Source: an uncultured Holophagaceae bacterium
GTDB lineage: Bacteria > Acidobacteriota > Holophagae > Holophagales > Holophagaceae
Direction of reading: 5' to 3'
NCBI GenBank assembly: GCA_903839205.1
Contig: CAIMBM010000165.1
Span: 1 to 38,085 of the forward strand
DNA: 38,085 nt
The position numbers and the translations under genes are program-made. Position 1 is the first letter of the stretch. The number at the start of each line of letters is the position of its first letter. The notes below the pieces were generated by a model. The model did no database searches. It saw only the letters and a list, made by a program, of their open reading frames with translations, and was not told where the DNA came from. Positions 11,096 through 32,003 of the stretch are shown one piece after another.

Positions 11096-14000
11096 TCATC
11101 CGGGGCCGTTCCCGGCGGGAACCGCCACCTCATCCTGCATCCGTGGCAGGGCCCGGTGGCGCGGGAACTTCAGGTAGGGAATGACGACATCGTTCCTGGA
11201 GGCGTCGGTCCCATCGTAGGTCACGGACACCATCGGCACACCCGTGATGCGCTCGATCTGGGGGCCCAGGGCCTCGGTGACAAGGCCTGGACAGCAGAAG
11301 GCCGGGCTCGTGTGGACGAAGAGGGCCAGGTCGGGATGGGCCTCGAGCACATGGAAGATGTTCAACAGGTTGTCCATGGTTTCGCCGGTGTGGTAGGGGC
11401 TGACGTTGAACTTCTTCAGGATCGCCTCCGCGTCGAGACCCGGCCCGCTCTCCCGCGGGGGGCCCAGCAGCCGGCCGAACTCTTCGGTGTACTTCTTCTC
11501 CATCAGCTGAATGGTCGTCAGGAGCGAACCAGAGGCCAGGACTCTGAGGTACTTCCCCTCGCGCATCCACTTGCGGAAGTACAGGCCGGCGACGGTCTTG
11601 ATGTACTCGTTGTAGGGAGTGGTGATCACTTCGCCGCCGTTCGCTTCGATGGTGTGCACGAGGTTCTGGTTCAGAGTCTCATTGTCGCGGGCGTACAGGT
11701 CGCCGAAGATGGCGACCTTCGGCCGAGGCCTGTCCTTCCTGGGGACCTCTGCGAACCTGTCCACCACGCGCCTGACGACGTCGATCTTGGGAAGGTCGTG
11801 TAGGAAGGCGTACTCGAACAGGATCAGGCCCTCCTCCATGACCCGGTCCGTCATTCCTGGCACCCCTTCATAGGGCCTGACCCTGCATGCCAGCCGCCGC
11901 AGCATGCCACCGAACATGTGGCAGAAATAGCTGTTGAGCGCGGCCCGGAGGGAGATGTCGATGAGCGTGAGGTCACCGGAGTAGACCCGGGCCTTTTCGA
12001 ACCCGCCCCCGTAGCTGGCCACGGCGCTCTGGATCGCCTGGGGGTACATCCCGATGTGGCACGCGACGGTCGAACCCGGGATCCAGAGCAGGGTCCTTTC
12101 CGGGTCCAGGTCCCAGCGGTGAACGTGGTCGACAAAGGTCTGCGCGATGATGTTCAGGGGGATGCACTGGCCCCCATTGCGAGTCAAGGACCGCGTGACG
12201 GTATCGCCATCTTCGCGCATGAGCCTCACATCGATGCCCGCATTGGCGAGGTTGGCGACGAGCAGTTGGCAGGTCAGGCGGTCCCAGGAGGGGAACAGGA
12301 GTACCTTGCCCTCCAGGTCCCTCGCCAGTGGGGACACCACAGGCTGCGTGAGCGGGGCGATCTCAGGGGCGGCTTCGGCGGTCCCCCGGTGATTGCGGAA
12401 GGCGCGCACCGCCGCCTCGATGCGGGTCTCGTAGCCCACCGCGGATTCATGGTCATCCAGTTGCAGCACGAGATAGGGCTTGTGGTGCCCCTCGCAGATC
12501 CGCTTGAAGTAGTCGAGGATGCAGGAATCGGGGGCGCACTTGAAGGAGGTGACGAAGACCGGGTACAGCCCGGGCGTCCCGGCCACCACCTGGGCGGCTT
12601 CCAGGACCTTCGCGGCGTAGTGCCAGTGCAGTGCCTTCAGGAGGTCGGCGATGGGCTCGACGTCCTTCTCGTCGTAGGTGAGCATGTCCTGGAAGAAGGT
12701 CTTCACGCCGAGGGCCGCGAATATGTCCGGGATCCCCTTGTTCATGGCCGGGGAGAGCACGACATAGGGCCGGCCGATCAGCACCACGACCGGGTCTTCG
12801 ATACCCGCAGTCTCTTTGGCGAAGACCCTCTTCAGGTCACCCCGCCAGGCGGCATGCACTTCAACGGCCTTGCCATAGGCTGCGGAGACCTCCGAGAAGC
12901 CCAGTTCCTCTCCGAGAACCGGTTTCAGGGCCAACAGCAGGTTGAGCCGAGTCTGCAGCGTCGTGAGGCCTTGGGCGATCACGGGCATCAGGCATTTCTT
13001 CCGGAGTTCGCCGTTGCCCAGGCCCGCGATGAGGGTCACGGCGTACTGGGAGTAGTAGCAGTACTGGCGGCGCAGGTCTCCCTGCCGCTCGGTAGATTCG
13101 AGGTTCAGGGGCACGAACAGGTGGTCGGCCCTCCGGCCCAGTTCCTCGGCCTGGGCATGCAGGACGGCCATGGGGGCGCAGAACTCGGCCCGCTCAGCCT
13201 TCTTGCCAGCTGCGATGAGTTCCTTGCGCCCGGGAACGGTCAGAGTCGGAACCCCGAGTTCGGCAAAGAAGGTCTGCCAGAGGTCCGCGTCCTCGAAGAA
13301 CTGCAGGCCAGACAGGAGCCCCATGGTGAAGTGCCTGCGCTCAGCGGCGATGTCCGTGGGACGCAGGACCCTCCTTCGAGCCTTCAGGAGGTCGAAGCCG
13401 GAGGTGTTCTTGGAGACATAGTGGTCCACGCCATAGTCCCGGCCGCAGAGGAACCCGTAGGCCGCCTTGTCGCCGGCGACCTCCGCCACCAGGATCCGGC
13501 AGGCGTTCGCGCACAGGTCACAGGTCTCCTGGGTGAGGGGGATGTCGGTCCGGAAGAGCCCGAGCCCCTTGAACTTCGAATCCGCCGGTGGCGCCTCGGC
13601 GAGCATCAGCGCCACCCCCAGGGCCCCGGTCAGGTGGCAGTACCGGGACACCCGGATGGGCCTGCCGAGTTTCTGGGCGAAGGCCGCGACCAGGGCCCGG
13701 TTCTTGGCGGTGGCGCCCTGGAAGCAGAGGTGCTGGCCGATGCTCCCCTCCTGGGCTACCTTCCGCAGGTAGTTCTCCCGCACCGCATGCAGGACCGCCG
13801 CCAGCGTCTCGGGCACGCTGTAGCCGCTGGCGATCAGGTGGTTGATGTCCCGTTGCATGAAGACCGTGCAGCGGTCGCTGGAACTGGGAGAGCGCACGGA
13901 GCCCACCTTCCCTGCAATGTCGGCGAGGGGCGTGTGCAGCCTTCGGGCCTGTTCCTCGATGAAGGTGCCGGTGCCTGCGGCGCAGACGGTGTTCATGACC

Positions 14001-15382
14001 GCGGAAGTCACCATGCCGTCCTTGAGGGTCGTGAACTTCGCGTCCTGGCCGCCGATCTCGATGATGGTGTCGACCTCCGGATCCAGCTCATAGGCGGCCC
14101 GGGCGTGGGCTGTGATCTCGTCGATCACCAGATCCGCACCGATGATGGCGGCGATGAACTTGCGACCGGCCCCCGTCGTACCCACGCCGGTGAAGGCAAG
14201 GTCCAGCGCGAGTCTGTCCCCCCAGTCCTGGATGGCCTCGAAAAGGGCCTGGGTTGCGATGAGTGGCCGGCCGGTGGTGCGCGTGTAGAAACCGGCCACC
14301 ACTTCGCGGGACTCGTCCAGCAGCACCGCTTTTGTGCTGGTGGAGCCGATATCGAGTCCAAGGGACATCCTGTGCTTCGTCCCCAGGGGAACCGGGCGGT
14401 AGATGTCCACTTCGACCGGCACGGCCTCCCGGACCACGCGGGGTTCGAACAGGAGTCGCTCCACACCCCGGAAATCCGGATAGTCCGAAAGGTCGAGGTC
14501 GAGCGGACCATGGGCGTAGGCCCGTCCGTCATGGTTCTCCAGGAGGAGTTCCTCGGGCCTCTCGAGGTCAAGGGGCTCCGGGGCAGACGTGGCCTCATCG
14601 CCGGCGTCCCGGACCTGGGCCTGGAGGAGCAGGGCGGCGCCTTGGGCACCGTAGAGGTGCGCCCAGGGATCCACCACCAGGTCGCTGCCGATCAGGGCCT
14701 TCAGGTGTCGCACCACCGCGGCGTTCTGGGCCACGCCCCCGGTGAGCACGATGGGCGTGCGCACTGCGGCGCCGGAGAACAGCGCATCGACCACCGTGGT
14801 CGCCAGCCCCAGGCAGAGCCCGTCGCAGATGGACTCCCGGGAAAAGCCCTGCTGCTGGGCGTGGGTCACGTCCGTCTTGGCGAACACGGCACAGCGCGAG
14901 GCGATCTTGGGAGGCGGCCGGTCCGAGCGCTCCGCGGCCGCGCCGAGCGCCGCGCTGCCCGGAAGGCCCAGGTTCTCGGCCTGTTCATCCAGGAAACTCC
15001 CGGTGCCCGCGGCGCAGGAGCTGTTCCCGTGGGCATCTCGGTATTCGTGGTTCCCGTCGAAGGTAATGAGCCCGAAGCGCTCGCCGCCGATGTTGAGGAT
15101 GGCGCCCAGGTCCGGATGCAGATGCTTGGCGGCGGCCATGAGGGCCAGGCGGTCATCGAAGCGGCTGCTCAACCGGAAGCGTGGTGGCGTGGACGTTGTG
15201 GTGGCCACCCACCCGATCCTGGGTACCTCCACGGTTGCCAGCATGCCGAGGACGCCTTCGGCGATGTTGCCGAAGTGGGGACCATAGCCGCGGTTGAGGA
15301 TCTGGCCGTCCCGATCCATGAGCACCATGGAGATCGAGACTGACCCGACATCGAGGGCGAGGATCAGCTTTCCCCTGGGCAT
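11096..15382 (-). CDS. Fused 2-hydroxyacyl-CoA dehydratase activase (two BcrAD/BadFG domains) and dehydratase-like protein
   Basis: A 1428-residue protein. Two ASKHA ATPase domains of the BadF/BadG/HgdC type lie at about 5-260 (ALDVGSVSISMVLMDRDG) and 338-595 (LGLDIGSTSTKAVLLDE). Each keeps the two cysteines that in HgdC hold a shared [4Fe-4S] cluster: C123/C164 (SCAAGTGSF, SRCAVF) and C467/C505 (VCAAGTGTF, DRCTVF). A DUF2229-like region begins near 610 with CDLCANAC, and the C-terminal part (about 1000-1400) resembles the HgdB/FldBC-type dehydratase fold. Family members couple ATP hydrolysis to one-electron reduction of a partner for radical acyl-CoA dehydration or benzoyl-CoA reduction; the substrate here is unknown. 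It is monocistronic, divergent from the NlpC gene, and its ribosome site is weak. Confidence 0.88.
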   Translation of the reverse strand: MPRGKLILALDVGSVSISMVLMDRDGQILNRGYGPHFGNIAEGVLGMLATVEVPRIGWVATTTSTPPRFRLSSRFDDRLALMAAAKHLHPDLGAILNIGGERFGLITFDGNHEYRDAHGNSSCAAGTGSFLDEQAENLGLPGSAALGAAAERSDRPPPKIASRCAVFAKTDVTHAQQQGFSRESICDGLCLGLATTVVDALFSGAAVRTPIVLTGGVAQNAAVVRHLKALIGSDLVVDPWAHLYGAQGAALLLQAQVRDAGDEATSAPEPLDLERPEELLLENHDGRAYAHGPLDLDLSDYPDFRGVERLLFEPRVVREAVPVEVDIYRPVPLGTKHRMSLGLDIGSTSTKAVLLDESREVVAGFYTRTTGRPLIATQALFEAIQDWGDRLALDLAFTGVGTTGAGRKFIAAIIGADLVIDEITAHARAAYELDPEVDTIIEIGGQDAKFTTLKDGMVTSAVMNTVCAAGTGTFIEEQARRLHTPLADIAGKVGSVRSPSSSDRCTVFMQRDINHLIASGYSVPETLAAVLHAVRENYLRKVAQEGSIGQHLCFQGATAKNRALVAAFAQKLGRPIRVSRYCHLTGALGVALMLAEAPPADSKFKGLGLFRTDIPLTQETCDLCANACRILVAEVAGDKAAYGFLCGRDYGVDHYVSKNTSGFDLLKARRRVLRPTDIAAERRHFTMGLLSGLQFFEDADLWQTFFAELGVPTLTVPGRKELIAAGKKAERAEFCAPMAVLHAQAEELGRRADHLFVPLNLESTERQGDLRRQYCYYSQYAVTLIAGLGNGELRKKCLMPVIAQGLTTLQTRLNLLLALKPVLGEELGFSEVSAAYGKAVEVHAAWRGDLKRVFAKETAGIEDPVVVLIGRPYVVLSPAMNKGIPDIFAALGVKTFFQDMLTYDEKDVEPIADLLKALHWHYAAKVLEAAQVVAGTPGLYPVFVTSFKCAPDSCILDYFKRICEGHHKPYLVLQLDDHESAVGYETRIEAAVRAFRNHRGTAEAAPEIAPLTQPVVSPLARDLEGKVLLFPSWDRLTCQLLVANLANAGIDVRLMREDGDTVTRSLTRNGGQCIPLNIIAQTFVDHVHRWDLDPERTLLWIPGSTVACHIGMYPQAIQSAVASYGGGFEKARVYSGDLTLIDISLRAALNSYFCHMFGGMLRRLACRVRPYEGVPGMTDRVMEEGLILFEYAFLHDLPKIDVVRRVVDRFAEVPRKDRPRPKVAIFGDLYARDNETLNQNLVHTIEANGGEVITTPYNEYIKTVAGLYFRKWMREGKYLRVLASGSLLTTIQLMEKKYTEEFGRLLGPPRESGPGLDAEAILKKFNVSPYHTGETMDNLLNIFHVLEAHPDLALFVHTSPAFCCPGLVTEALGPQIERITGVPMVSVTYDGTDASRNDVVIPYLKFPRHRALPRMQDEVAVPAGNGPG

Positions 15383-16441: not shown

Positions 16442-17416
16442 ATGGCCACCTATTCCTATGGCGGATGCATCGAGCAGGCCTACAAGGTCAACTGGAAGAT
16501 CAAGGATGTTCTGGGGAAGGTGGACTTTGATCTGAATCGCCCCTGGCTTCCCGCGGACCTCTCGGGCAGCGGTGACATCTTCTGCCTGAATCCCGAGGAG
16601 AAGCAGAAACTGACCCATGTGGAGATGGGGGCCTACGTCCACCTGGTCGGTTTCCTGGAGACCTTCATCGCCCCCTTGATGGTGGATCTGGCTCTGGATT
16701 CTGATGGGTCGGACAGCCAGGCCTTTGAGGCCCTGGCCAACTTCGCCTCGGAAGAAGTCAAGCACATGCACCTCTTTCGCGAGGTCGGCCGACGCATCGA
16801 TGCAAGGCTCGGGTTCCCCTTACAGAGGGCTGATGGACAGAACGAGGTTGCGCAGGCTGTACTGAGCAGGAGCAAGGGCGCCGTGCTACTGCTGACGGCG
16901 GCCATCGAATGGTTCACCCAGCAGCACTACGTCAGCTCCATGAACCCGTCCGACGGATTGGATCCCCTGACCCGGGAAGTCTTCCGCTGCCACTGGATGG
17001 AGGAGGCACAACATGCGCGGCTGGACCACCTAGAGGGGCTACGGCTCTTTAAGGACATGACGGTCCTGGAGCGGGGGGAGGCCGTTGAAGATTTCGTCTG
17101 GCTGCTGGCCACCCTGGACGGTCTCCTCGAGCGGCAGTCTCTGCTCGACGGGTTGAATCTGGAGAGGCACCTGGGGCGAACCTTTACGGATCGGGAGCGC
17201 ACCGAGATCCTGGACAGCCTGTTGAAGGCCAAGCGCCATTGCTTCATCGAAAGCGGCCTCTCCCACCCGAATTTCCTGGAGCTCTACCTATCGGTGACGA
17301 CGGCGTCCCAACAGGCAAGGGTCCTGGGGGCCGTCAGGCTGCTGTTGCAGAGGCAGCCTTTCCATTGGACCCCCCCGACGGAGCCCTCCCCCCGAGGCCG
17401 AGAGCATTATTTGTAG
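16442..17416 (+). CDS. AurF-like diiron (ferritin-like) protein
   Basis: A 324-residue all-helical protein with carboxylate-bridged diiron ligands: E73 in FLETFIAP, E105xxH108 in SEEVKH, E156 in AAIEWF, and H184xxxE188xxH191 in HWMEEAQH. The HxxxExxH spacing is the same as H223/E227/H230 of the p-aminobenzoate N-oxygenase AurF, which carries an extra histidine ligand compared with ordinary ferritin-like sites. AurF relatives oxidise amines or other small molecules with O2; the substrate here is unknown and no biosynthetic cluster surrounds it. A good GGAGGTGA ribosome site lies before the ATG. Preceded by a TTGACG/CATATT promoter and followed by the cold-shock gene with 145 bp between. Confidence 0.75.
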
Positions 17417-22747: not shown

Positions 22748-22810
22748 CTTGAGCCAGGTCCCTGTTGGACCGCCAGACCTTCATTCTGCTTCCCGGAGAT
22801 GACCCCCTTC

Positions 22811-23680
22811 ATGCGCACCCACAGCCTTGTCTCTCTCTTCCTGTCCGCTGGCTGCCTGTTTGCCGGAGCCCCTGATCCAGGCGGTTCGGGCAAGGCCCCA
22901 CAGCCGGCTGAAAGGGCGTCCATGGATTCGCCCTCCGATCCGGACCGGTTCGGGCACCTGCCCCGGCTGCTGCTGGACGATACCGAGCATGCCGTCACCG
23001 CCCCCGCGCGCTGGGACCGCTCGGACTGGACGACTGCCGGCCTGGGCGCGGCCGCGGTGCTGGGCTCAGGCCTGCTGCTGGACCACTCCATGGCCCAGTT
23101 CATGGCCAGGCACGCCAGCGCCTCCTGGGACCGCGATGCCAAGGCCGTGCAGAACCTGGGCAGCACGCCCAGCGTGGCGATCGCGGTGGGCACCTATGTG
23201 GCCGGTGTCGCCTTCAAGGATCCCGAAGTGCGGGCCACGGGCATCGACACCATGGTGACCATGGGGCTGGCCCAGCTCCTGCTCACCATTCCGCTGAAGG
23301 TGGTGGTGGGCCGGTCCAGGCCTTCCAAGGACCTGGGTACGCACGATTTCCATCCCCTGAATGGGGGAGAGTCCTTCCCCTCAGGCCACACCACCCAGGC
23401 CTTCGCCCTGGCCTCGGTCATCGCCGAACACGCAGATCAGCCCTGGGTATCCTGCGTATCTTACGGACTCGCGGGGCTGGTGGGGGTGGCCCGCATGGAG
23501 CAGCGCCAGCACTTCCTGTCCGACGTGGTGGCAGGTGGGCTCATCGGAACCTTCGTCGGCAAGACCGTGGTCGCCTACAATCAGACCCTGCGCGCCGATG
23601 CCCACTCCAAGCTCTCCGTGTCCGTCGCGCCCACCTTCCAGCCCGGAGGCTACGGGCTCAGCGTGGCCATGAAGTTTTAG
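22811..23680 (+). CDS. PAP2-type phosphatase, exported
   Basis: A 289-residue protein with an N-terminal signal (FLSAGCLFAGA). The three PAP2/acid-phosphatase motifs are intact: KVVVGRSRP, PSGHTTQAFA, and R-x5-H-x3-D in ARMEQRQHFLSD. Hydrophobic segments around 78-92, 124-140 and 150-165 suggest a membrane-linked enzyme, of the kind that dephosphorylates lipid phosphates such as undecaprenyl pyrophosphate. The C-terminus (VSVAPTFQPGGYGLSVAMKF) looks like beta-strand and ends in phenylalanine. ATG at 22811 chosen because GGAG lies 12 nt upstream; the ATG at 22799 overlaps that site. Convergent with dgkA, which also handles lipid phosphate. Confidence 0.85.
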   Translation: MRTHSLVSLFLSAGCLFAGAPDPGGSGKAPQPAERASMDSPSDPDRFGHLPRLLLDDTEHAVTAPARWDRSDWTTAGLGAAAVLGSGLLLDHSMAQFMARHASASWDRDAKAVQNLGSTPSVAIAVGTYVAGVAFKDPEVRATGIDTMVTMGLAQLLLTIPLKVVVGRSRPSKDLGTHDFHPLNGGESFPSGHTTQAFALASVIAEHADQPWVSCVSYGLAGLVGVARMEQRQHFLSDVVAGGLIGTFVGKTVVAYNQTLRADAHSKLSVSVAPTFQPGGYGLSVAMKF

Positions 23681-23717: not shown

Positions 23718-24080
23718 TTAGGAGCTCTTGACCAGCGTCGACCAGAGGAAGGCGAGGAAGGTCAATACGGCGCTGAAGCTGAAGATGAGCACGGCCCCGG
23801 CGGCGCAGTCCTTGGACACCTTGATGGCCGGGTGGAGTTCTGGGTGCAGGTGGTCGAGGGCGTGTTCCAGGGCTGTGTTGAAGAGCTCGGCCGCCAGCAC
23901 CAGGCTGCAGTTCAGCAGCAGCAGGGCCCACCAGATGGCTGCGGGCCGCAGGCCGAGGAGCAGGCCCACCACCGCCAGGGCCATCATGCTCTGGAATCGG
24001 AAACTGGCCTCCAGCCTCCAGGCCGTGCGGATCCCCTGCAGGCTGTAGGACAGGCGCTTGGGAAAGGGCTGGTTCTTCAT
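23718..24080 (-). CDS. dgkA: Diacylglycerol/undecaprenol kinase DgkA
   Basis: A small membrane kinase phosphorylating diacylglycerol or undecaprenol at the inner membrane. Visible: the amphipathic start RLSYSLQGIRTAWRLEASFRF, three transmembrane helices (about 30-50, 55-72, 97-117), and the active-site segments AAELFNTALEHALD and HPAIKVSKDCAAGAVLI. From the ATG at 24080 the protein has 120 residues, the family norm, with AAGGAG 4-5 nt upstream. An ATG at 24116 would add 12 residues and leave only 20 bp to the divergent LDT-Mur start, although it too has AGGAGG upstream. Confidence 0.9.
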   Translation of the reverse strand: MKNQPFPKRLSYSLQGIRTAWRLEASFRFQSMMALAVVGLLLGLRPAAIWWALLLLNCSLVLAAELFNTALEHALDHLHPELHPAIKVSKDCAAGAVLIFSFSAVLTFLAFLWSTLVKSS

Positions 24081-24136
24081 GGGCTCCTTGATGAGGATCT
24101 TGATGGGAACATTCATTGTGACACCGGAGCCTCCTG

Positions 24137-26077
24137 ATGCTTGATCCCGTCCTCGCCGCCCGTTACCGCGCCCTGCTCCAGGCGAACCGCGGTCGCATCG
24201 GCGCCCCCGCCCTGGACTCCCGGGAGCGGGTCCTCGTGGTGGACACTGCCCGCCAGCGGCTGGGTCTGCTGGAGGACGGGAGCCTGGTGTTCGAGGCCAG
24301 CGTCTCCACTGCGAAGAACGGCCTGGGTTGCGAGGAGAACTCCCATCGCACCCCCACGGGTTGGCACCGCATTCACGCGTGCATCGGGGCCGGGGCGGAA
24401 CCTGGGACCGTCTTCCGCAGCCGCGTGGCCACGGGGGAGGTGTGGCGAGGCGAGCCGCGGGAGGACGACCTGATCCTCACCCGGGTGCTGACCCTGGATG
24501 GGCTCGAAGATGGCTGGAACCGGGGACCCGGGCGGGATTCCCGGAAACGGTTCATCTACCTTCACGGCACCAACCAGGAGCTGCAGCTCGGTCAGCCCGT
24601 CTCCCATGGTTGTGTGCGCCTCTCCAATGCGGACGTGGCCGCCCTGTTCGAGCGCGTCTCGTCCGGCGATCCCGTGCTCCTCGCCGAAGAGCTGTCCGGC
24701 GATGGCCTGGGCCTCGGGCGGCTTCACTTCGCGGGGGTCGCGGGCAGCGGCATGAGCGCCCTGGCCCAATTCGTGGTGATGAAAGGGGGCCGGGCCAGCG
24801 GCAGCGACCGCAGCTTCGACCGGGGCCAGCGGCCCGGGGCCAGGGCACAGCTGGAAGCCCTGGGCGTGGTGATCCATCCCCAGGATGGCGTAGGTTTGGA
24901 AGGCGACTGCTCGGCCCTCATCGTGTCCACGGCCGTGGAAGAGGAGGTGCCTGATGTGGCGGCGGCCCGGCGCCTGGGCCTGCCGGTGCTGCACCGCTCG
25001 GACCTGCTGGCCCATCTCGTGGCGCGGTACCGCACCCTGGCAGTGACCGGTACCAGCGGCAAGTCCACCACCGTGGCCATGGCTTTCGAAATCCTGCGGG
25101 GCGCGGGGCTGGATCCCTCGGTCATCACGGGCGGGGAGTTGGTGTCCCTGCAGCGGGAGGGGCTCTGGGGCAATGCCTGGGCGGGGGCCTCGGACCTGCT
25201 GGTGGTGGAGGCCGACGAGAGCGACGGCTCTGTCGTTCGCTACCATCCGGCCGTGGGTGTGCTGCTGAACCTGCAGCGGGACCACAGGGAGATGGACGCC
25301 GTGGCCGAGATGTTCCGTGCCTTTCGGGACCAGGTGCGGGAGAGGGCCGTCGTGGGCGAGGTCGGGAACCTGCGTGAATTCGCCCCGGGCGCGGCGGTCT
25401 TCGGAGTTGGCGAGGGGGTGGATCTTCGTGCCGAGAGCCTGGACCTTGGACCGGAGGGGTCCTCTTTCCTGGTGCGGGGCCTGCCCTTCCGGCTTCCGGT
25501 GCCGGGCCAGCACAACGTGGAGAATGCCCTGGCGGCCATGGCCGCCTGCGAAGCCCTCGGTGTGCCCCTGGCTGCCATGGTGGGCCCCCTGGGGGCCTTC
25601 CGGGGCGTGGCGCGGCGCTTCCAGGTGCTGGGCACCCGGGGCGGGGTGACCGTGGTGGATGACTTCGGCCACAACCCGGCCAAGGTGGCGGCCTCCATCC
25701 GCGCAGCGCATCTCCGGGTGCAGGCCGGGGGTGGACGCATCCTGGCGGTTTTCCAGCCCCACGGGTTCGGCCCCCTCCGGTTCCTCCGGGGGGATTTCGT
25801 GGAGGCCTTCGCCGCGGAACTGGCGCCCCGGGACCGCCTCTGGTTCCTGGAGGTCTTCTACGCCGGGGGCACCGCCACTCGGGATATCAGCAGTGGGGAG
25901 GTGGTCCGGGACATCGCCGCCCGGGGCGTGGTCGCCGCGTTCGCGCCCTCGCGGGAGTGGCTGGCCGGTCGCCTGGTGGCCGAAGCGAAGGCGGGCGACC
26001 TGATCCTCGTCATGGGTGCCCGGGATCCCTCCCTTGCTGGTTTCGCGAAGGCGATCCTGGAGGCGCTGCCTTCCTGA
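24137..26077 (+). CDS. L,D-transpeptidase (YkuD) domain fused to a MurC/Mpl-type Mur ligase
   Basis: A 646-residue fusion without signal peptide, so cytoplasmic. Residues about 30-185 are a YkuD domain: RTPTGWHRIH, IYLHGTN (His143) and SHGCVRLSNADV with His157 and nucleophile Cys159. Residues about 195-646 are a Mur ligase: Rossmann start LHFAGVAGSGMSALA, P-loop TGTSGKSTT (304-312), EADESDGS (358-365), NLQRDH, PGQHNVENALAAMAA, VVDDFGHNPAKVAAS and FQPHGFGP. P-loop Ser replaces the usual His (GTHGKT). ADESDGS favours MurC, but Mpl is close and cannot be excluded. YkuD enzymes make L,D-crosslinks or, in some cases, cut the terminal D-Ala of tetrapeptides; coupling to a muropeptide ligase suggests peptidoglycan recycling. 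CCGGAG precedes the ATG. Confidence 0.88.
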   Translation: MLDPVLAARYRALLQANRGRIGAPALDSRERVLVVDTARQRLGLLEDGSLVFEASVSTAKNGLGCEENSHRTPTGWHRIHACIGAGAEPGTVFRSRVATGEVWRGEPREDDLILTRVLTLDGLEDGWNRGPGRDSRKRFIYLHGTNQELQLGQPVSHGCVRLSNADVAALFERVSSGDPVLLAEELSGDGLGLGRLHFAGVAGSGMSALAQFVVMKGGRASGSDRSFDRGQRPGARAQLEALGVVIHPQDGVGLEGDCSALIVSTAVEEEVPDVAAARRLGLPVLHRSDLLAHLVARYRTLAVTGTSGKSTTVAMAFEILRGAGLDPSVITGGELVSLQREGLWGNAWAGASDLLVVEADESDGSVVRYHPAVGVLLNLQRDHREMDAVAEMFRAFRDQVRERAVVGEVGNLREFAPGAAVFGVGEGVDLRAESLDLGPEGSSFLVRGLPFRLPVPGQHNVENALAAMAACEALGVPLAAMVGPLGAFRGVARRFQVLGTRGGVTVVDDFGHNPAKVAASIRAAHLRVQAGGGRILAVFQPHGFGPLRFLRGDFVEAFAAELAPRDRLWFLEVFYAGGTATRDISSGEVVRDIAARGVVAAFAPSREWLAGRLVAEAKAGDLILVMGARDPSLAGFAKAILEALPS

Positions 26078-26109: not shown

Positions 26110-26901
26110 ATGGAACCCACCACCCTCCGCGCCGTGATGTCCACGCTCCGGAATCCGGAGACAGGCTGTCCCTGGGACCTGAAGCAGGATCACCAGACTC
26201 TGGCCCGCTACCTGCGCGAGGAGGCGGCCGAGGTGCTCGAAGCGCTGGCGGCCCACCATCCAGGCGATGCGACCACGGAGGCCCACCTCTGTGAAGAGCT
26301 GGGCGACCTCTGGCTGCAGGTGGCCTTCCACGCCCAGCTGGCGGCGGACCGCGGGGCCTGGGATCTCCACGAGGTCGAGAGGACGGTCGTGGAAAAGCTG
26401 GTGCGCCGCCATCCCCACGTGTTCGGCGAGGTGGCCGTCGAGGGCGCGGGCGACGTGCTCCGCAACTGGGCGGCCATCAAGCGCGACGAGAAGGGCCTCG
26501 GGCCCGAGCGTGAACCGCGGCTGCTGGAGGGCATTCCGCCCACGCTGTCCCCCATGGACGAGGCCCTGGAGATCGGCCGCCGCTGTGCCAAGGTGGGCTT
26601 CGAATGGCCCGACCTGGAGGGGGTCCTCGACAAGGTGAAGGAGGAGGTGGCCGAACTGCAGGCCGAATCCGATCCGGTCCGCGTGGAGGAAGAGTTCGGG
26701 GACGTGCTGTTCAGCCTCATGCAGTGGGCCCGCAAGAAGGACGTGGATCCGGACGCCGCACTGCGGCGCCAGATGATCCGCTTCAAGAGCCGCTTTGCCG
26801 CCGTCGAGGACGATGCCCGCGCCGCCGGCGGGTGGGCTCACCGTGACCTCGAGCAGATGGAGGCCGCCTGGCAGGCCGCCAAGAAGAAGGGGAGGCCCTG
26901 A
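26110..26901 (+). CDS. mazG: Nucleoside triphosphate pyrophosphohydrolase MazG
   Basis: A 263-residue all-alpha NTP pyrophosphatase that hydrolyses (d)NTPs to monophosphates plus pyrophosphate, a house-cleaning role. Two MazG repeats are present: the N-terminal one has GCPWDLKQDHQTLARYLREEAAEVLEAL and EELGDLWLQVAFHAQ, the ExxE...ExxD magnesium site; the C-terminal one has KVKEEVAELQAE and EEFGDVLFSLMQWARK. Length fits E. coli MazG (263). It ends in TGATG overlapping the start of the next gene by 1 nt. Confidence 0.95.
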   Translation: MEPTTLRAVMSTLRNPETGCPWDLKQDHQTLARYLREEAAEVLEALAAHHPGDATTEAHLCEELGDLWLQVAFHAQLAADRGAWDLHEVERTVVEKLVRRHPHVFGEVAVEGAGDVLRNWAAIKRDEKGLGPEREPRLLEGIPPTLSPMDEALEIGRRCAKVGFEWPDLEGVLDKVKEEVAELQAESDPVRVEEEFGDVLFSLMQWARKKDVDPDAALRRQMIRFKSRFAAVEDDARAAGGWAHRDLEQMEAAWQAAKKKGRP

Positions 26902-27509: not shown

Positions 27510-28877
27510 ATGAGCCCTCTGCCGTTCCACCTCGTGACCCTGTCCCACTCCGAGTGGGAGGCCGCCCTGGCCTGCGCCAAGGGCCTCGGGGAGGACGCCC
27601 TTCCGGAACTGCGGCTGGATCTGTTCCCGGGGCTGGATCCGGAAGCCCTGGTGGACGCCCTGAAGCGCCGCTGCCTCGTGACCTGCCGCCGGGCCTCCGA
27701 GGGCGGGCGCTGGCCGGACGAGGACGAGGCGGGGCGCCTGGCGCACCTGACCCGGGCGCTCCGGGGCAGGCCCGCCTGGATGGACCTGGAATGGGACCTG
27801 CCCATCCCCGCCGACATCCAGGCGGCCCGCACCCATGTGCGGCTGCTGCGGTCCATCCACGTGGCACCGGGTGTCTTCGACCTGGAGGCGCGCCTCTCAT
27901 CGCTGCCCGATGGCGAGGCCTTCAAGTGGGTGGGCTGGGCCGGGCGACTGGGCGACAACGGCCGTCTCCGGGGGGCACTGGCCTGGGCTCGGGACCACGG
28001 CACCCGGCTGTCGGCCTTCCTCATGGGCCCCAAGGGCCTCCCCAGCCGGGCCCTCCAGGCGGTCTGGGGCGGGGCTTTCACCTACGCGGCGCCCGACGAC
28101 GGGCCTCCAGCCGCCCCGGGCCAGCTGCCCCTGTCGGTCCTCCGGGCCTGGCGCGCCGCCAAGCTCCACGCAGGCTGCGGCCTCTGCGGGGTCATCGGCG
28201 ACCCGGTCCTGCATTCCCGGGGGCCGGCCTTCCACAATCCGCGCTTCCAGTACGCCCTGAAGGACCTGGTCTACCTGCCCCTGCTTTGCGCGGACGCGGA
28301 GGAGGCCGGGGAGGCCCTGGATGCGCTCGGCGTCCTGGGCCTGAGCATCACGGCACCCCTGAAGCTTTCGCTGCCGGAGGCCCTCGGCCTGGTGGGTCCC
28401 CTCAACACCCTCTGGCGGCGGCGGCCCGGCGAGCCCTGGCAGGGAGCCAACACTGATGCCGAGGCCCTGGAACAGGCCCTCTCGGAGCTGGAACCCGGCC
28501 CCGTCCTCCTGCTGGGGGAGGGCGGCGTGGCCCGCACCAGCCGCGAGGTCCTGGGGGGGGCCGGGCGGGCCGTGCTTCAGGTTTCGCGGCGATCCCCCTC
28601 GACGGCGGAGGCGGTGGCGGCCCTCGGGCCGGTGGGCGTGGTCCAGGCCACGAGCCTCGGCATGTCCGCCCTGGAGCCCGTGCCATTCCCGGACCTGCTG
28701 GAGGCGGCCCGGCCCAGCGCCCGCTGGGCTGTGGAGTGGATCTACAAGGAGGACACGGCCTTCGCGATCTGGGCCCGGAATGCGGGCCTCCGCCTGGTGG
28801 AGGGCCTGGCGCTATTCGACGCCCAAGCCGAAGCCCAGAGCCGGCGTTTCATCGAAGGCTGCGGCGGGGTCGACTGA
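27510..28877 (+). CDS. aroDE: Fused type I 3-dehydroquinate dehydratase and shikimate dehydrogenase
   Basis: A 455-residue bifunctional shikimate-pathway enzyme covering steps three and four. Residues 1-210 are a type I DHQ dehydratase: ELRLD at 33-37, His117 in RSIHV, Schiff-base Lys139 in AFKWVGW, Arg180 in PSR and the closing APGQ. Residues 225-455 are a shikimate dehydrogenase: GVIGDPVLHSRGPAFHN, Lys285 in TAPLK, Asp316 in ANTD, and the NADP loop GEGGVARTSREVL. The shikimate-binding SxS (HSKSP) reads HSRGP here, so one hydroxyl ligand is lost. Both domains are compact versions. A CATAAT -10-like box lies 23 nt upstream; there is no clear ribosome site. Plants use the same fusion order. 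Confidence 0.92.
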   Translation: MSPLPFHLVTLSHSEWEAALACAKGLGEDALPELRLDLFPGLDPEALVDALKRRCLVTCRRASEGGRWPDEDEAGRLAHLTRALRGRPAWMDLEWDLPIPADIQAARTHVRLLRSIHVAPGVFDLEARLSSLPDGEAFKWVGWAGRLGDNGRLRGALAWARDHGTRLSAFLMGPKGLPSRALQAVWGGAFTYAAPDDGPPAAPGQLPLSVLRAWRAAKLHAGCGLCGVIGDPVLHSRGPAFHNPRFQYALKDLVYLPLLCADAEEAGEALDALGVLGLSITAPLKLSLPEALGLVGPLNTLWRRRPGEPWQGANTDAEALEQALSELEPGPVLLLGEGGVARTSREVLGGAGRAVLQVSRRSPSTAEAVAALGPVGVVQATSLGMSALEPVPFPDLLEAARPSARWAVEWIYKEDTAFAIWARNAGLRLVEGLALFDAQAEAQSRRFIEGCGGVD

Positions 28878-28903: not shown

Positions 28904-30226
28904 ATGGACCTCCTACTGGTCGAGGACAAGGACAGTTTCCGACGGCTGCTGAGCCAGGCGCTGGAAGGAACGGTCTGGAAGGTGAAGGCCGTGGCGGATC
29001 CCCAGGAGGCCCTGGGGGCCATGGAGGCCCAGTCCTTCCACGTGCTGGTCACGGACCTCCGCCTGCCTGGCATGAACGGCCTCGAACTGATCCGCCGGGC
29101 ACGGCGCCTCAACCCCCGCCTGCGAGTGGTGCTGATGTCCGCCTTCGGAGAACCCAGCGATATCGTCGAGGCCATGCGGCTGGGGGCGGACGACTTCCTT
29201 CCCAAGCCCTTCGACCTGGACACGTTCCTGGCCCTCCTCGACCGTCTCCGGGCGCTGGTGGGGGCGCCGCCCCCGGATCCCGCCGAGGCCTGGGTCGCCC
29301 ACAGCCCGGCCATGCAGGCCCTGGAGGCGGCGCTGCGCCAGGCTGCGGCTTCACCTCTGTCCGTCCTGTTCCGCGGCGAACGCGGGTCCGGCCGGGAGCG
29401 CTGTGCCCGTCGCCTCCACGTCCTGCGCCACCCCGCGGCGCCCTACCTGAGCCTGCCGGCGGCCACCCTGGGGCCCGAAGGCCCCGACCCGCGGACCCTC
29501 CAGCTGCTGGAGGGGGGCAGCCTCTTCGTCCCAGGGCTGGAACACCTCTCACAGGCCGCCGTGCTTCCCCTGGCAAGGGCAATGGACAGTGGCGCCGGCC
29601 GCCGTCTCGCCTGGATGGGAAGCGTCGACCCCGAGGGGGTGCTCCCTCCGGTCCTCGCGGAGCGCCTGGGTTCCCTGGAACTGCCGGTGCCTCCCCTGCG
29701 GGAACGACGGGAGGACCTGCTGGCCCTGACCCGCCAGTTGCTGGAGGTGGCCGCCCGGCGGGAGAGCCGTCCCGCGCCCTGGCTGGATCGGGGTGCCGAG
29801 CGGCAGCTGCTGGAACACGCCTGGCCAGGCAATGTGCGGGAGCTGGAAGTGCTCCTCGGCCGGACCCTCCTCTTTTCGGAGGGCCATGCCATCCGGACCT
29901 TTGCGGATCTGGGGTTGGGGCAGGCCGCTCCCCTGTGTCTGCCCTGGCCCGAGGCCGGCAGCCTGGACGGCATGCTCAGGGTTGTGGTGCGGTCCGCCGA
30001 AGCCAAGCTGCTGCGCCAGGCCCTGACCGAGGCCGCCGGGGATCTGCCCCGGGCTGCGGAGGCCCTGGCCCTGACCGTCCGGACCCTGGCTCAGCGCTTG
30101 CGGGACCATGGCATTCCTCTTGAAGATAGAGACTCCACCTCCGCAAGCCCGAAGGGTGAGCGGGAGCGCACCGCGATGGAGCGTGCGGTCGAGGGAGAAA
30201 GCAGGCAGCCGTGGAAGGCCCCATGA
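28904..30226 (+). CDS. NtrC-type response regulator with degenerate AAA+ domain
   Basis: A 440-residue protein. The receiver (1-120) is intact: acidic pocket E7/D9, phosphoacceptor D51 in VTDLRLPGMNG, S79 and K101 in LPKPF. The central domain (about 130-350) has NtrC ancestry (PPLRERREDL, AWPGNVRELEVLL) but is broken as an ATPase: Walker A reads GERGSGRE with Arg164 for lysine, Walker B reads GSLFVPGL without acids, and about 20 residues that normally hold the sigma-54-contacting GAFTGA loop are missing. A Fis-type HTH (about 370-415, AGDLPRAAEALALTVRTLAQRL) remains. It probably binds DNA or partners under phosphorylation control without activating sigma-54. No sensor kinase is adjacent. Its stop overlaps the moxR start (ATGA). 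Confidence 0.88.
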   Translation: MDLLLVEDKDSFRRLLSQALEGTVWKVKAVADPQEALGAMEAQSFHVLVTDLRLPGMNGLELIRRARRLNPRLRVVLMSAFGEPSDIVEAMRLGADDFLPKPFDLDTFLALLDRLRALVGAPPPDPAEAWVAHSPAMQALEAALRQAAASPLSVLFRGERGSGRERCARRLHVLRHPAAPYLSLPAATLGPEGPDPRTLQLLEGGSLFVPGLEHLSQAAVLPLARAMDSGAGRRLAWMGSVDPEGVLPPVLAERLGSLELPVPPLRERREDLLALTRQLLEVAARRESRPAPWLDRGAERQLLEHAWPGNVRELEVLLGRTLLFSEGHAIRTFADLGLGQAAPLCLPWPEAGSLDGMLRVVVRSAEAKLLRQALTEAAGDLPRAAEALALTVRTLAQRLRDHGIPLEDRDSTSASPKGERERTAMERAVEGESRQPWKAP

Positions 30227-31194
30227 CTCAGGTCCCACCCATCCTCGTCCCTCCGACCCGCAGCCTGGAGGGAATCCGCCCGGCTGCCCGGGCCGGGCTC
30301 ACCGCGCTCCAGTCCGTGGTGGTGGGCAAGGAAGCGCAGGTCCGGCGGGCCTTTGCGACCATGCTGGCCGGTGGCCACGTGCTGCTGGAGGATCTCCCGG
30401 GCGTGGGGAAGACCACCCTGGCCAAGGGGCTGTCCCGCATCCTCGGCGGCAGCTTCCAGCGCGTCCAGGGCACCAACGACCTGCTGCCCTCGGACCTGCT
30501 GGGGGTCCACCTCTGGGATGCGAAGGAGGAGGGTTTCCGCTTCCAGCCCGGTCCCGTGTTCTGCCATGTGCTGCTCCTGGATGAGCTGAATCGCATCGGC
30601 CCCAAGACCCAGAGCGCCATGCTCGAAGCCATGGTGGAGGGGCAGGTCACCCTGGACCGAAGCACCCACAAGCTGCCCGAGCCCTTCTTCGTCATCGCCA
30701 CCCAGAACCCGCTGGACCACGCCGGGACGTTCCCCCTGCCCGAGAGCCAGCTGGACCGCTTCTCCTGCACCATCCACCTGGGCTACCCGGACCGGGTGGC
30801 GGAACGGCGCATTCTCACGGGGGAGGCAGGCGCCGAGCGGCTGGACACGCTCTCGCCCGTGTTGGATCTGGAGGGGTGGCGCCAGGCGCGCGAGGCGGTA
30901 CGCCTCGTGAAGGTTTCCGAAGCGGTGCTGGACTATGTCGAACGGATGGTGGAGCGCATCCGCGCCGGCGGGGGGTTCTGCTCGAGCCGCGCGGCCAAGC
31001 ACTGGCTGGCGCTCGCCCAGGCCGAGGCCTGGCTCCAGGACCGGGACTTCGTCACCCCGGACGACCTGCAGGGCACCCTCTCGGACACCATGGCCCACCG
31101 GGGCAGCCTGGATGATCGCCGGCTCAACCGGGGCGAGCGGCGCGAACAGCTGGCCAGGCTGCTGAAGGAACTGCCCGTGGGGTGGGCCGGATGA
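30223..31194 (+). CDS. MoxR family AAA+ ATPase
   Basis: A 323-residue MoxR ATPase: Walker A PGVGKTT at 59-65, the MoxR-specific VQGTNDLLPSDLLG, Walker B VLLLDELNR (Asp120, Glu121), sensor-1 IATQNPLDHAGTFPLPE, and a lid with SSRAAKHWLALAQA. MoxR proteins act as chaperones for metal-cofactor or envelope complexes, usually with VWA and DUF58 partners, which are absent here. GGAAGG lies 4 nt before the ATG; an upstream GTG at 30211 is less likely. It overlaps the regulator stop and the next start by 4 nt each. Confidence 0.92.
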   Translation: MTQVPPILVPPTRSLEGIRPAARAGLTALQSVVVGKEAQVRRAFATMLAGGHVLLEDLPGVGKTTLAKGLSRILGGSFQRVQGTNDLLPSDLLGVHLWDAKEEGFRFQPGPVFCHVLLLDELNRIGPKTQSAMLEAMVEGQVTLDRSTHKLPEPFFVIATQNPLDHAGTFPLPESQLDRFSCTIHLGYPDRVAERRILTGEAGAERLDTLSPVLDLEGWRQAREAVRLVKVSEAVLDYVERMVERIRAGGGFCSSRAAKHWLALAQAEAWLQDRDFVTPDDLQGTLSDTMAHRGSLDDRRLNRGERREQLARLLKELPVGWAG

Positions 31195-32003
31195 CTGAGG
31201 AAGAATCGGTCGGTCAGCTGATCCGGCGGGCCCGCGAGGCCAGGGGACTCCGTTTGGAGGAGCTGGCCAGGGAGCTGAAGCTTCCGCTGCGGCACCTCGA
31301 GGCCATCGAGGGGGACCACTGGGATGCGCTGCCGCCCGGGCGGCCCAGGCCCCTGGCCCGCCAGCTGGCCGCCCGTCTGGACGTGGATCTCGAGTACCAC
31401 ACCGGAGCCTTCCAAATCGTCCCTGGCGTACAGGAACTGGAACCGCCTGATCCCCGGCAGGAACGGCTCGAGCGGGTGGTCATGGGGGTCCTGACGGCCG
31501 TCTCGGTCCTGGTACTGCTCTGGCTGGTCGTGCCAGGCCCCAGCCTGGGCCGCAAGCCGCCGCCAAGCTACCTGGCGGTGCTCACCAGGCCCACCCTGCC
31601 ACCTCCCCCGGCGCCTTCCGCCTCCCCCTATCCGGTCCTTGGCGAGCTCCTGCCCGAGGCCCCCTTGAATGACCAGGGAACCCTGGTCAGCCTTCGGGTC
31701 ATGGACACCTGCGAGGTGAACATTGAACCCCAGACAGATGCCGGAGGGCCGCGCCTGGTGCGGACGCTCCGGGTCTCGGAGCCCTGGCGCCTCCGGGTCA
31801 AGGGGCCCTTCACCCTCCGGCTCGACAATGCCGGGGTGGTCAATGTGGAGGTGGCCGGCCGCCGCATCGTCCACGGCCAGAGTGTCGGGGAGCCGTGGAC
31901 CGGCCAGTTCGATGAGGAAGGGCATTGGCTCAGGCCCGCGCTTCCTGAACTGCCCGAAGGGGCACCGGTGCCCGATGATGACGAGGACGGAACCAAGCCA
32001 TGA
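31191..32003 (+). CDS. RodZ-like HTH membrane protein
   Basis: A 270-residue bitopic protein. Residues about 5-75 form the RodZ-type HTH (VGQLIRRAREARGLRLEELA), which in RodZ binds MreB. A proline-containing linker leads to one transmembrane helix (about 97-117, VVMGVLTAVSVLVLLWLVV), a proline-rich stretch, and a C-terminal periplasmic beta domain like DUF4115 (about 165-245: LVSLRVMDTCEVNIE and PFTLRLDNAGVVNVEVAG). It may help cell shape, but no mreB or penicillin-binding gene is nearby. Start chosen at the ATG in the ATGA overlap with moxR. Confidence 0.8.
   Translation: MTEEESVGQLIRRAREARGLRLEELARELKLPLRHLEAIEGDHWDALPPGRPRPLARQLAARLDVDLEYHTGAFQIVPGVQELEPPDPRQERLERVVMGVLTAVSVLVLLWLVVPGPSLGRKPPPSYLAVLTRPTLPPPPAPSASPYPVLGELLPEAPLNDQGTLVSLRVMDTCEVNIEPQTDAGGPRLVRTLRVSEPWRLRVKGPFTLRLDNAGVVNVEVAGRRIVHGQSVGEPWTGQFDEEGHWLRPALPELPEGAPVPDDDEDGTKP

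Follow-up and report, generated by a model that had tools for sequence, protein, structure and literature searches.

What would a cell gain by joining a domain predicted to trim murein peptides to a ligase that would return them to the cell wall precursor, and which ligase is it? This question is raised by one gene of an uncultured Holophagaceae bacterium, located on contig CAIMBM010000165.1 (GenBank assembly GCA_903839205.1), of which a stretch of 38,085 nucleotides, here called the window, was analysed. The gene encodes a YkuD domain followed by a Mur ligase, and an earlier note, made from the sequence alone, had read it as a MurC/Mpl-type ligase fused to a YkuD domain that could act as an L,D-carboxypeptidase in the cytoplasm. 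Our analysis places the ligase half in a third lineage beside MurC and Mpl, and the YkuD half resembles ElsL. The fused protein probably serves murein-peptide recycling in the cytoplasm: it would take the terminal D-Ala off a recycled tetrapeptide and subsequently ligate the tripeptide to UDP-N-acetylmuramate (UDP-MurNAc).

The fused gene and its split relatives

Translation of positions 24137-26077 (+ strand) yields one open frame of 646 residues with a single stop at its end. Pfam matches above cut-off cover YkuD (residues 31-181; 83.7 bits, cut-off 23.4), Mur_ligase (PF01225, 196-299), Mur_ligase_M (PF08245, 303-471), and Mur_ligase_C (PF02875, 493-629). With the PF03734 cut-off passed and the YkuD fold recovered for one half, and all three ligase models matched by the other, the halves belong to the YkuD and Mur ligase superfamilies, respectively. 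The stop-to-stop frame (651 aa) leaves merely five codons upstream of the ATG, and the maximal Kyte-Doolittle mean of 15-residue stretches starting within residues 1-45 is 1.02; in the upstream frame and N-terminal hydrophobicity, no signal peptide is apparent. The single leaderless chain described by the earlier note is thereby confirmed, and the intact YkuD site (His143, His157, Cys159) and the ligase motifs (residues 305-311, 358-363, and 508-514) were likewise recovered. AlphaFold2 models the full chain with a mean predicted local distance difference test score (pLDDT) of 94.3 and a predicted template modelling score (pTM) of 0.91, and both halves are modelled with high confidence. Catalytic Cys/His, P-loop Lys, EADESD, and DH residues are unchanged in all 20 fused rows of the alignment.

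A search of 396 Acidobacteriota-phylum genomes revealed a full-length match in 33 of the 39 family genomes, namely in all 27 of the genus and in 6 of the 12 others; close relatives carry the source name Geothrix. In G190 (L185), the match falls into two aligned pieces of one continuous open frame, in which additional sequence separates the halves, and in one further family genome the fusion is truncated by the contig end. Judged by best E-value, the other 357 phylum genomes show MurC-level or lower matches, one of them none at all. Both halves share a single frame in 30 out of 30 fetched homologues (L007-L036) as well as in L039 and L040, which rules out the frameshift or assembly join that could have undone the earlier note. 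Existing source labels for such proteins are L,D-transpeptidase family protein, UDP-N-acetylmuramate-alanine ligase, or hypothetical, none of which fits the fused protein.

When the halves were searched apart, stand-alone ligases and stand-alone YkuD proteins of about 55-70% identity were found, several of them named Candidatus Eisenbacteria; the closer matches are mostly truncated Geothrix-like pieces. Of the stand-alone YkuD contigs, 50 exceed 3 kb, and 24 of these equal a stand-alone ligase contig exactly in size. Over all typed contigs, 26 such coincidences were counted, as opposed to 0-3 after shifts of 1 to 23 bases, from which we infer that the two genes lie on the same contig. In three fetched loci of two other phyla, the split halves are overlapping neighbour genes: YkuD is located directly upstream of the ligase on the same strand in Krumholzibacteriia (L041) and in the Fibrobacterota Chitinispirillum (L048) and Fibrobacteres (L050), and its stop codon falls within the open ligase frame (frames without starts set). 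Most of the searched family thus keeps the architecture, which has split two-gene counterparts and is not unique to one protein. Neither the fusion nor the third ligase lineage was found described in the open literature searched.

Nine second YkuD proteins of relatives were considered as split homologues and rejected. On a hidden Markov model (HMM) of ElsL-like proteins, eight of them (L178-L180, L182-L184, L186, L187) reach 3-21 bits, compared to 296 for a fusion, and their N-termini look hydrophobic by eye; the ninth, L181, scores approximately 0.

The ligase half

At least 38 loci of the ligase lineage (L039-L076) were collected, and the lineage is probably wider. Our trees contain 37 of them (L066 was dropped due to broken frames), 4 of the 30 fused loci, 10 Eisenbacteria-type rows, and the window, while MurC is represented by 11 of 42 loci (L077-L118) and 14 further rows. 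A careful tree, i.e., the 91-row set minus MurD and the long-branch L080, L099, and L171, separates the lineage (52 rows, supports 100/99) from Mpl (13 rows, 100/100) and MurC (22 rows, 96/88); the first, 91-row tree gives an identical three-way split. By this placement, the ligase half belongs with neither MurC nor Mpl but forms a third lineage with 51 relatives, which corrects the MurC/Mpl-type assignment of the earlier note.

Its P-loop difference, GTSGKS instead of GTHGKT, was well observed: the residue is Ser in 47, Ala in 4, and Cys in 1 of the 52 lineage rows and His in 38 out of 38 MurC and Mpl rows, and the GTSGKS-type P-loop marks the lineage. The lineage furthermore gained HNP (versus HHP) and GARD. 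The amino-acid-binding residue of MurC is Arg380 in HiMurC numbering (PMC3060825, in excerpt). Arg occupies this position in 25 of 25 MurC rows and in 0 of 52 lineage rows, the fusion having a motif-placed Pro. Mpl is characterized by the signature (S/T)AFFDKRSK after EADE and by the UDP-binding loop GI(C/G)GTFM (PMC3060825, same excerpt); the fusion reveals EADESDGSVVRY and GVAGSGM in their places.

For the whole protein, 25 of 28 matching NCBIfam families were listed. Among these, the top match is murC (TIGR01082) with 281.4 bits, below the cut-off of 335.1. Since E. coli Mpl itself reaches 273 bits on the murC model, murC as top match does not imply MurC. On the Mpl model (TIGR01081), the fusion scores 127.3 bits versus a cut-off of 388.7, and E. 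coli Mpl 914 bits.

For 19 of the 38 lineage loci, the respective genomes (19 other genomes) were tested for MurC and Mpl. Twelve of these genomes have a MurC-model match of their own above cut-off, separate from the lineage ligase, and 12 MurC loci from those genomes group with MurC by tree; Mpl over cut-off was found in none of the 19. In the Elusimicrobia-branch loci L042, L044, L046, L051, and L069, the ligase gene follows dapA, asd, and dapB (names assigned by eye).

The YkuD half and the proposed function

Among the matches listed, the top YkuD-type NCBIfam model of the fusion is ElsL (NF040925; 127.2 bits), aligned almost over its whole length (positions 8-160 of 164). The best L,D-transpeptidase model among them yields 31 bits, and the controls LdtB and LdtC reach 31 and 22 bits on the ElsL model. 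Like ElsL, the fusion has a leaderless YkuD domain with catalytic His and Cys. The YkuD half was modelled and fold-searched alone, as ligase matches had filled the fold list of the whole protein. A PDB sequence search with this half gave solely short matches to solved YkuD-type proteins, and an ElsL structure is absent among these four sequences. The nearest characterised YkuD protein is ElsL (PMC8649774, in part) and not Csd6, the analogue named in the earlier note. The note's central idea, an L,D-carboxypeptidase of the cytoplasm linked to a ligase for peptides, still fits best.

The own genome is 85.5% complete. It encodes a separate orthodox MurC (551.9 bits), a check that the earlier note had proposed, together with AmpG, AnmK, and one GH3 protein of NagZ size, and the fusion carries its single YkuD domain. 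A second orthodox mpl plus ldcA, which the earlier note had held against itself, was not encountered: LdcA was not found in the own genome at this completeness and is missing from 36 of 47 genus genomes, among them four that consist of a single contig, while canonical Mpl over cut-off occurs in 0 of 12 Holophagaceae genomes, the own one included, versus 62 of 149 in the phylum. Two genomes of a sister family reach 324 and 341 bits on the Mpl model, below cut-off.

The 11 of 47 genus genomes that have LdcA are precisely those that have Amidase_2, and this set looks like an accessory muropeptide-scavenging cluster and not like something that works with the fusion. In G106:C1, at about 926-951 kb (L190, L191), LdcA, Amidase_2, and a second AmpG-like permease lie within 25 kb; our own HMMs detected no additional Mur ligase or ElsL-like domain in this cluster. 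A Pfam scan revealed no amidase near AmpG in six frames of the own 7.7-kb AmpG contig and in four of a relative.

In the proposed pathway, anhydro-muropeptides would enter via AmpG. The Cys159/His157 site would act as a carboxypeptidase on L-Ala-gamma-D-Glu-mDAP-D-Ala (mDAP, meso-diaminopimelate), which could be free or linked to a sugar or to UDP. The ligase domain would activate the lactoyl carboxylate of UDP-MurNAc by ATP and couple the tripeptide, and MurF would add D-Ala-D-Ala afterwards. One chain would carry both the ElsL step and the Mpl step, and the joined steps would prevent tetrapeptide, which is a dead-end donor in D,D-cross-linking, from entering the precursor pool and lipid II.

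The recycling enzyme has to be weighed against a second MurC. Here, the ligase half would add L-Ala (or Gly/Ser) and the YkuD half would edit tetrapeptide-bearing precursors, the two sharing a pathway in non-consecutive steps. The murC model as top match (281 bits, among the matches listed), the MurC-like EADESD and GxGSGM-type loop, and the lineage ligase L047, which exceeds the MurC cut-off (340.7 versus 335.1 bits), speak for it, yet a comparable 273 bits is reached by E. coli Mpl. In all four Elusimicrobia-branch genomes tested, of which three bear that name and that of L042 is assigned by tree, no orthodox MurC over cut-off was found along with the lineage ligase, and the same applies to both genomes labelled Alphaproteobacteria and to one of two from Kiritimatiellota (completeness given for none of these genomes). 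The four Elusimicrobia-branch genomes retain further, lower-scoring Mur ligases. Since no ligase other than the lineage one matches MurC strongly there, some members may add L-Ala, and the conserved Arg629 could stand in for Arg380, which is gone in 52 of 52 lineage rows. Given the orthodox MurC of 552 bits in the same genome, the MurC matches in 12 of the 19 other genomes, and the loss of Arg380, we regard a second MurC as unlikely for the fusion itself. Far less probable is a YkuD half acting as an L,D-transpeptidase, in D-amino acid exchange or periplasmic crosslinking, with an incidental tie to the ligase: a signal peptide is not apparent, a UDP-MurNAc- and ATP-dependent ligase is cytoplasmic by its substrate, the ElsL model scores about four times the best L,D-transpeptidase model (127 versus 31 bits, among the matches listed), and 33 of 39 family genomes keep the union, which two further phyla show as pairs of split neighbour genes. 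About equally improbable, and if anything slightly more so, is one degenerate half, leaving a carboxypeptidase only or a ligase only. Nothing direct speaks for it apart from the lineage's exchanges of P-loop His for Ser and HHP for HNP, and it is opposed by the residues invariant in all 20 fused rows and by the high-confidence models of both halves.

Several further observations weigh against the recycling enzyme, as do the absent MurC matches, the score of L047, and the possible role of Arg629. The ligase half fails as a member of Mpl by motifs, score, and clade, and the fusion misses the ElsL cut-off (127.2 versus 270 bits). The pathway needs an amidase to release the peptide, but Amidase_2 (AmpD) was found neither in the own genome nor in 36 of 47 genus genomes, other amidase families being unsearched, and absences in the own genome are weak if taken alone. 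Within the family, 5 of the 12 non-Geothrix Holophagaceae show MurC-level scores only (one of them, G308, has a 293-codon YkuD frame), and in L066, the third named Holophagaceae locus, the ligase is split over two frames with no adjoining YkuD frame found. Across L042-L076, a YkuD gene occurs in the fetched flank (up to 10 kb, often less) only at L048 and L050; none lies within it at the remaining lineage loci, those of Bacteroidota and Fibrobacter included. Nor do the YkuD-linked ligases form one branch: a 27-row group comprises L048/L050, Holophagaceae/Eisenbacteria/Krumholzibacteriia, Elusimicrobia, and L049, and no YkuD was seen near the Elusimicrobia ligases or L049 of this group. The lineage may be broader than Mpl in substrate, or its YkuD-linked branch may have taken on another role.

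A wider reading, which we put forward tentatively and consider improbable on balance, is a third murein-entry ligase family, ranking with MurC and Mpl, in several phyla. Its YkuD-fused form in Holophagaceae and some Eisenbacteria would be self-proofreading, with trimming and ligation of recycled wall peptide in a single chain, and in Elusimicrobia it would have replaced MurC outright, wall synthesis being opened by an enzyme made for peptides and not for free L-alanine. The lineage raises the question how bacteria without recognisable MurC, as the Elusimicrobia tested, begin wall synthesis. If the recycling enzyme is real, it fills a recycling step now missed by annotation pipelines, provides a Rosetta-stone argument for functional coupling of ElsL-type trimming and peptide ligation, and offers one purifiable protein for direct tests of coupling or of the editing of toxic tetrapeptide precursors.

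Neighbouring genes and known systems

Features of the fused gene and its neighbours, in positions of the window
Feature	Positions	Strand	Basis
PAP2-family gene beside the fusion	22799-23680	+	domain search
DAGK_prokar-family gene (prokaryotic diacylglycerol kinase), divergent, start 20 bases before the fusion ATG; not part of the enzyme	23718..24116	-	domain search
Gene, YkuD (ElsL-like) + Mur ligase fusion, 646 codons, stop included	24137..26077	+	translation, Pfam, homologue frames
YkuD domain, residues 31-181	24227..24679	+	Pfam; NCBIfam ElsL NF040925, 127 bits
His143, YkuD active site	24563..24565	+	kept in 20/20 fused rows, 25/25 split YkuD rows
Ser156-His157-Gly158-Cys159, YkuD catalytic motif	24602..24613	+	20/20 fused rows; His157 in 23/25 split rows
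Short linker, residues 184-194	24686..24718	+	Pfam bounds, AlphaFold2 model
Mur ligase half, residues 195-646, third lineage beside MurC/Mpl	24719..26074	+	Pfam, trees, fold search
P-loop GTSGKST, residues 305-311	25049..25069	+	translation, alignment
EADESD, residues 358-363, MurC-like; Mpl motif (S/T)AFFDKRSK missing	25208..25225	+	translation, motif comparison
DDFGHNP, residues 508-514; HNP lineage-specific	25658..25678	+	translation, alignment
FQPHGFGPLR, residues 539-548; Gly/Pro at MurC Arg377/Arg380 positions	25751..25780	+	motif alignment
MGARDP, residues 626-631; lineage-specific Arg629, Gly in MurC/Mpl rows	26012..26029	+	alignment
MazG, downstream neighbour; not part of the enzyme	26110..26901	+	Pfam

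Conservation of the neighbours is partial: among 32 mostly short loci, 19 have MazG close to the fusion and 10 have the kinase there. Diacylglycerol-kinase-family and PAP2-family proteins are kinds able to act on the wall lipid carrier. The window furthermore encodes another fused enzyme, a type I 3-dehydroquinase with a shikimate dehydrogenase N-terminal domain (27510-28877, +), an AAA_3-type ATPase gene, presumably MoxR-like, overlapping a RodZ-like helix-turn-helix gene (30211-32000, +), a protein of 1428 residues that combines a BcrAD/BadFG CoA-dehydratase-activase region and DUF2229 (11096-15382, -), and an AurF-like protein of the p-aminobenzoate N-oxygenase family (43 bits; 16442-17416, +). 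A further locus, L001 (G000:C272:14194-14781), is a Mur ligase middle domain within a 942-codon open frame, whose contig also has a MurD-like protein (by eye, L004); it is possibly another Mur ligase fusion.

Among the known systems, LdcA, of which none was found in the own genome, is a Peptidase_S66 protein and not a YkuD protein. MurC, the UDP-MurNAc:L-Ala ligase, differs in its clade, and the fusion stays below the MurC cut-off, lacks Arg380 and the P-loop His, has HNP and GARD, and stands beside an orthodox MurC copy in the same genome. Mpl, the murein peptide ligase that couples L-Ala-gamma-D-Glu-mDAP to UDP-MurNAc, is set apart by its clade, by a model score that the fusion does not reach, and by (S/T)AFFDKRSK, GI(C/G)GTFM, and EPRSNT, all absent from the fusion (motifs as given in the excerpt of PMC3060825). 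Csd6 trims wall peptidoglycan for cell shape (PMC4599014, in part). ElsL (LdtK), the cytoplasmic L,D-carboxypeptidase of Acinetobacter, shares the leaderless YkuD domain with its His/Cys site and acts ahead of Mpl in recycling, where it cuts disaccharide-tetrapeptide but leaves pentapeptide alone; in the part of PMC8649774 used here, its orthologues are listed mainly from Gamma- and Betaproteobacteria and Verrucomicrobia. From ElsL the fusion differs by its score below cut-off and by the joined ligase. The individual steps are already known, while the open literature searched gave no account of the ligase lineage or of its union with an ElsL-like domain. The fused protein would combine the work of ElsL and Mpl, but as judged from the scores, motifs, and trees it belongs to neither family.
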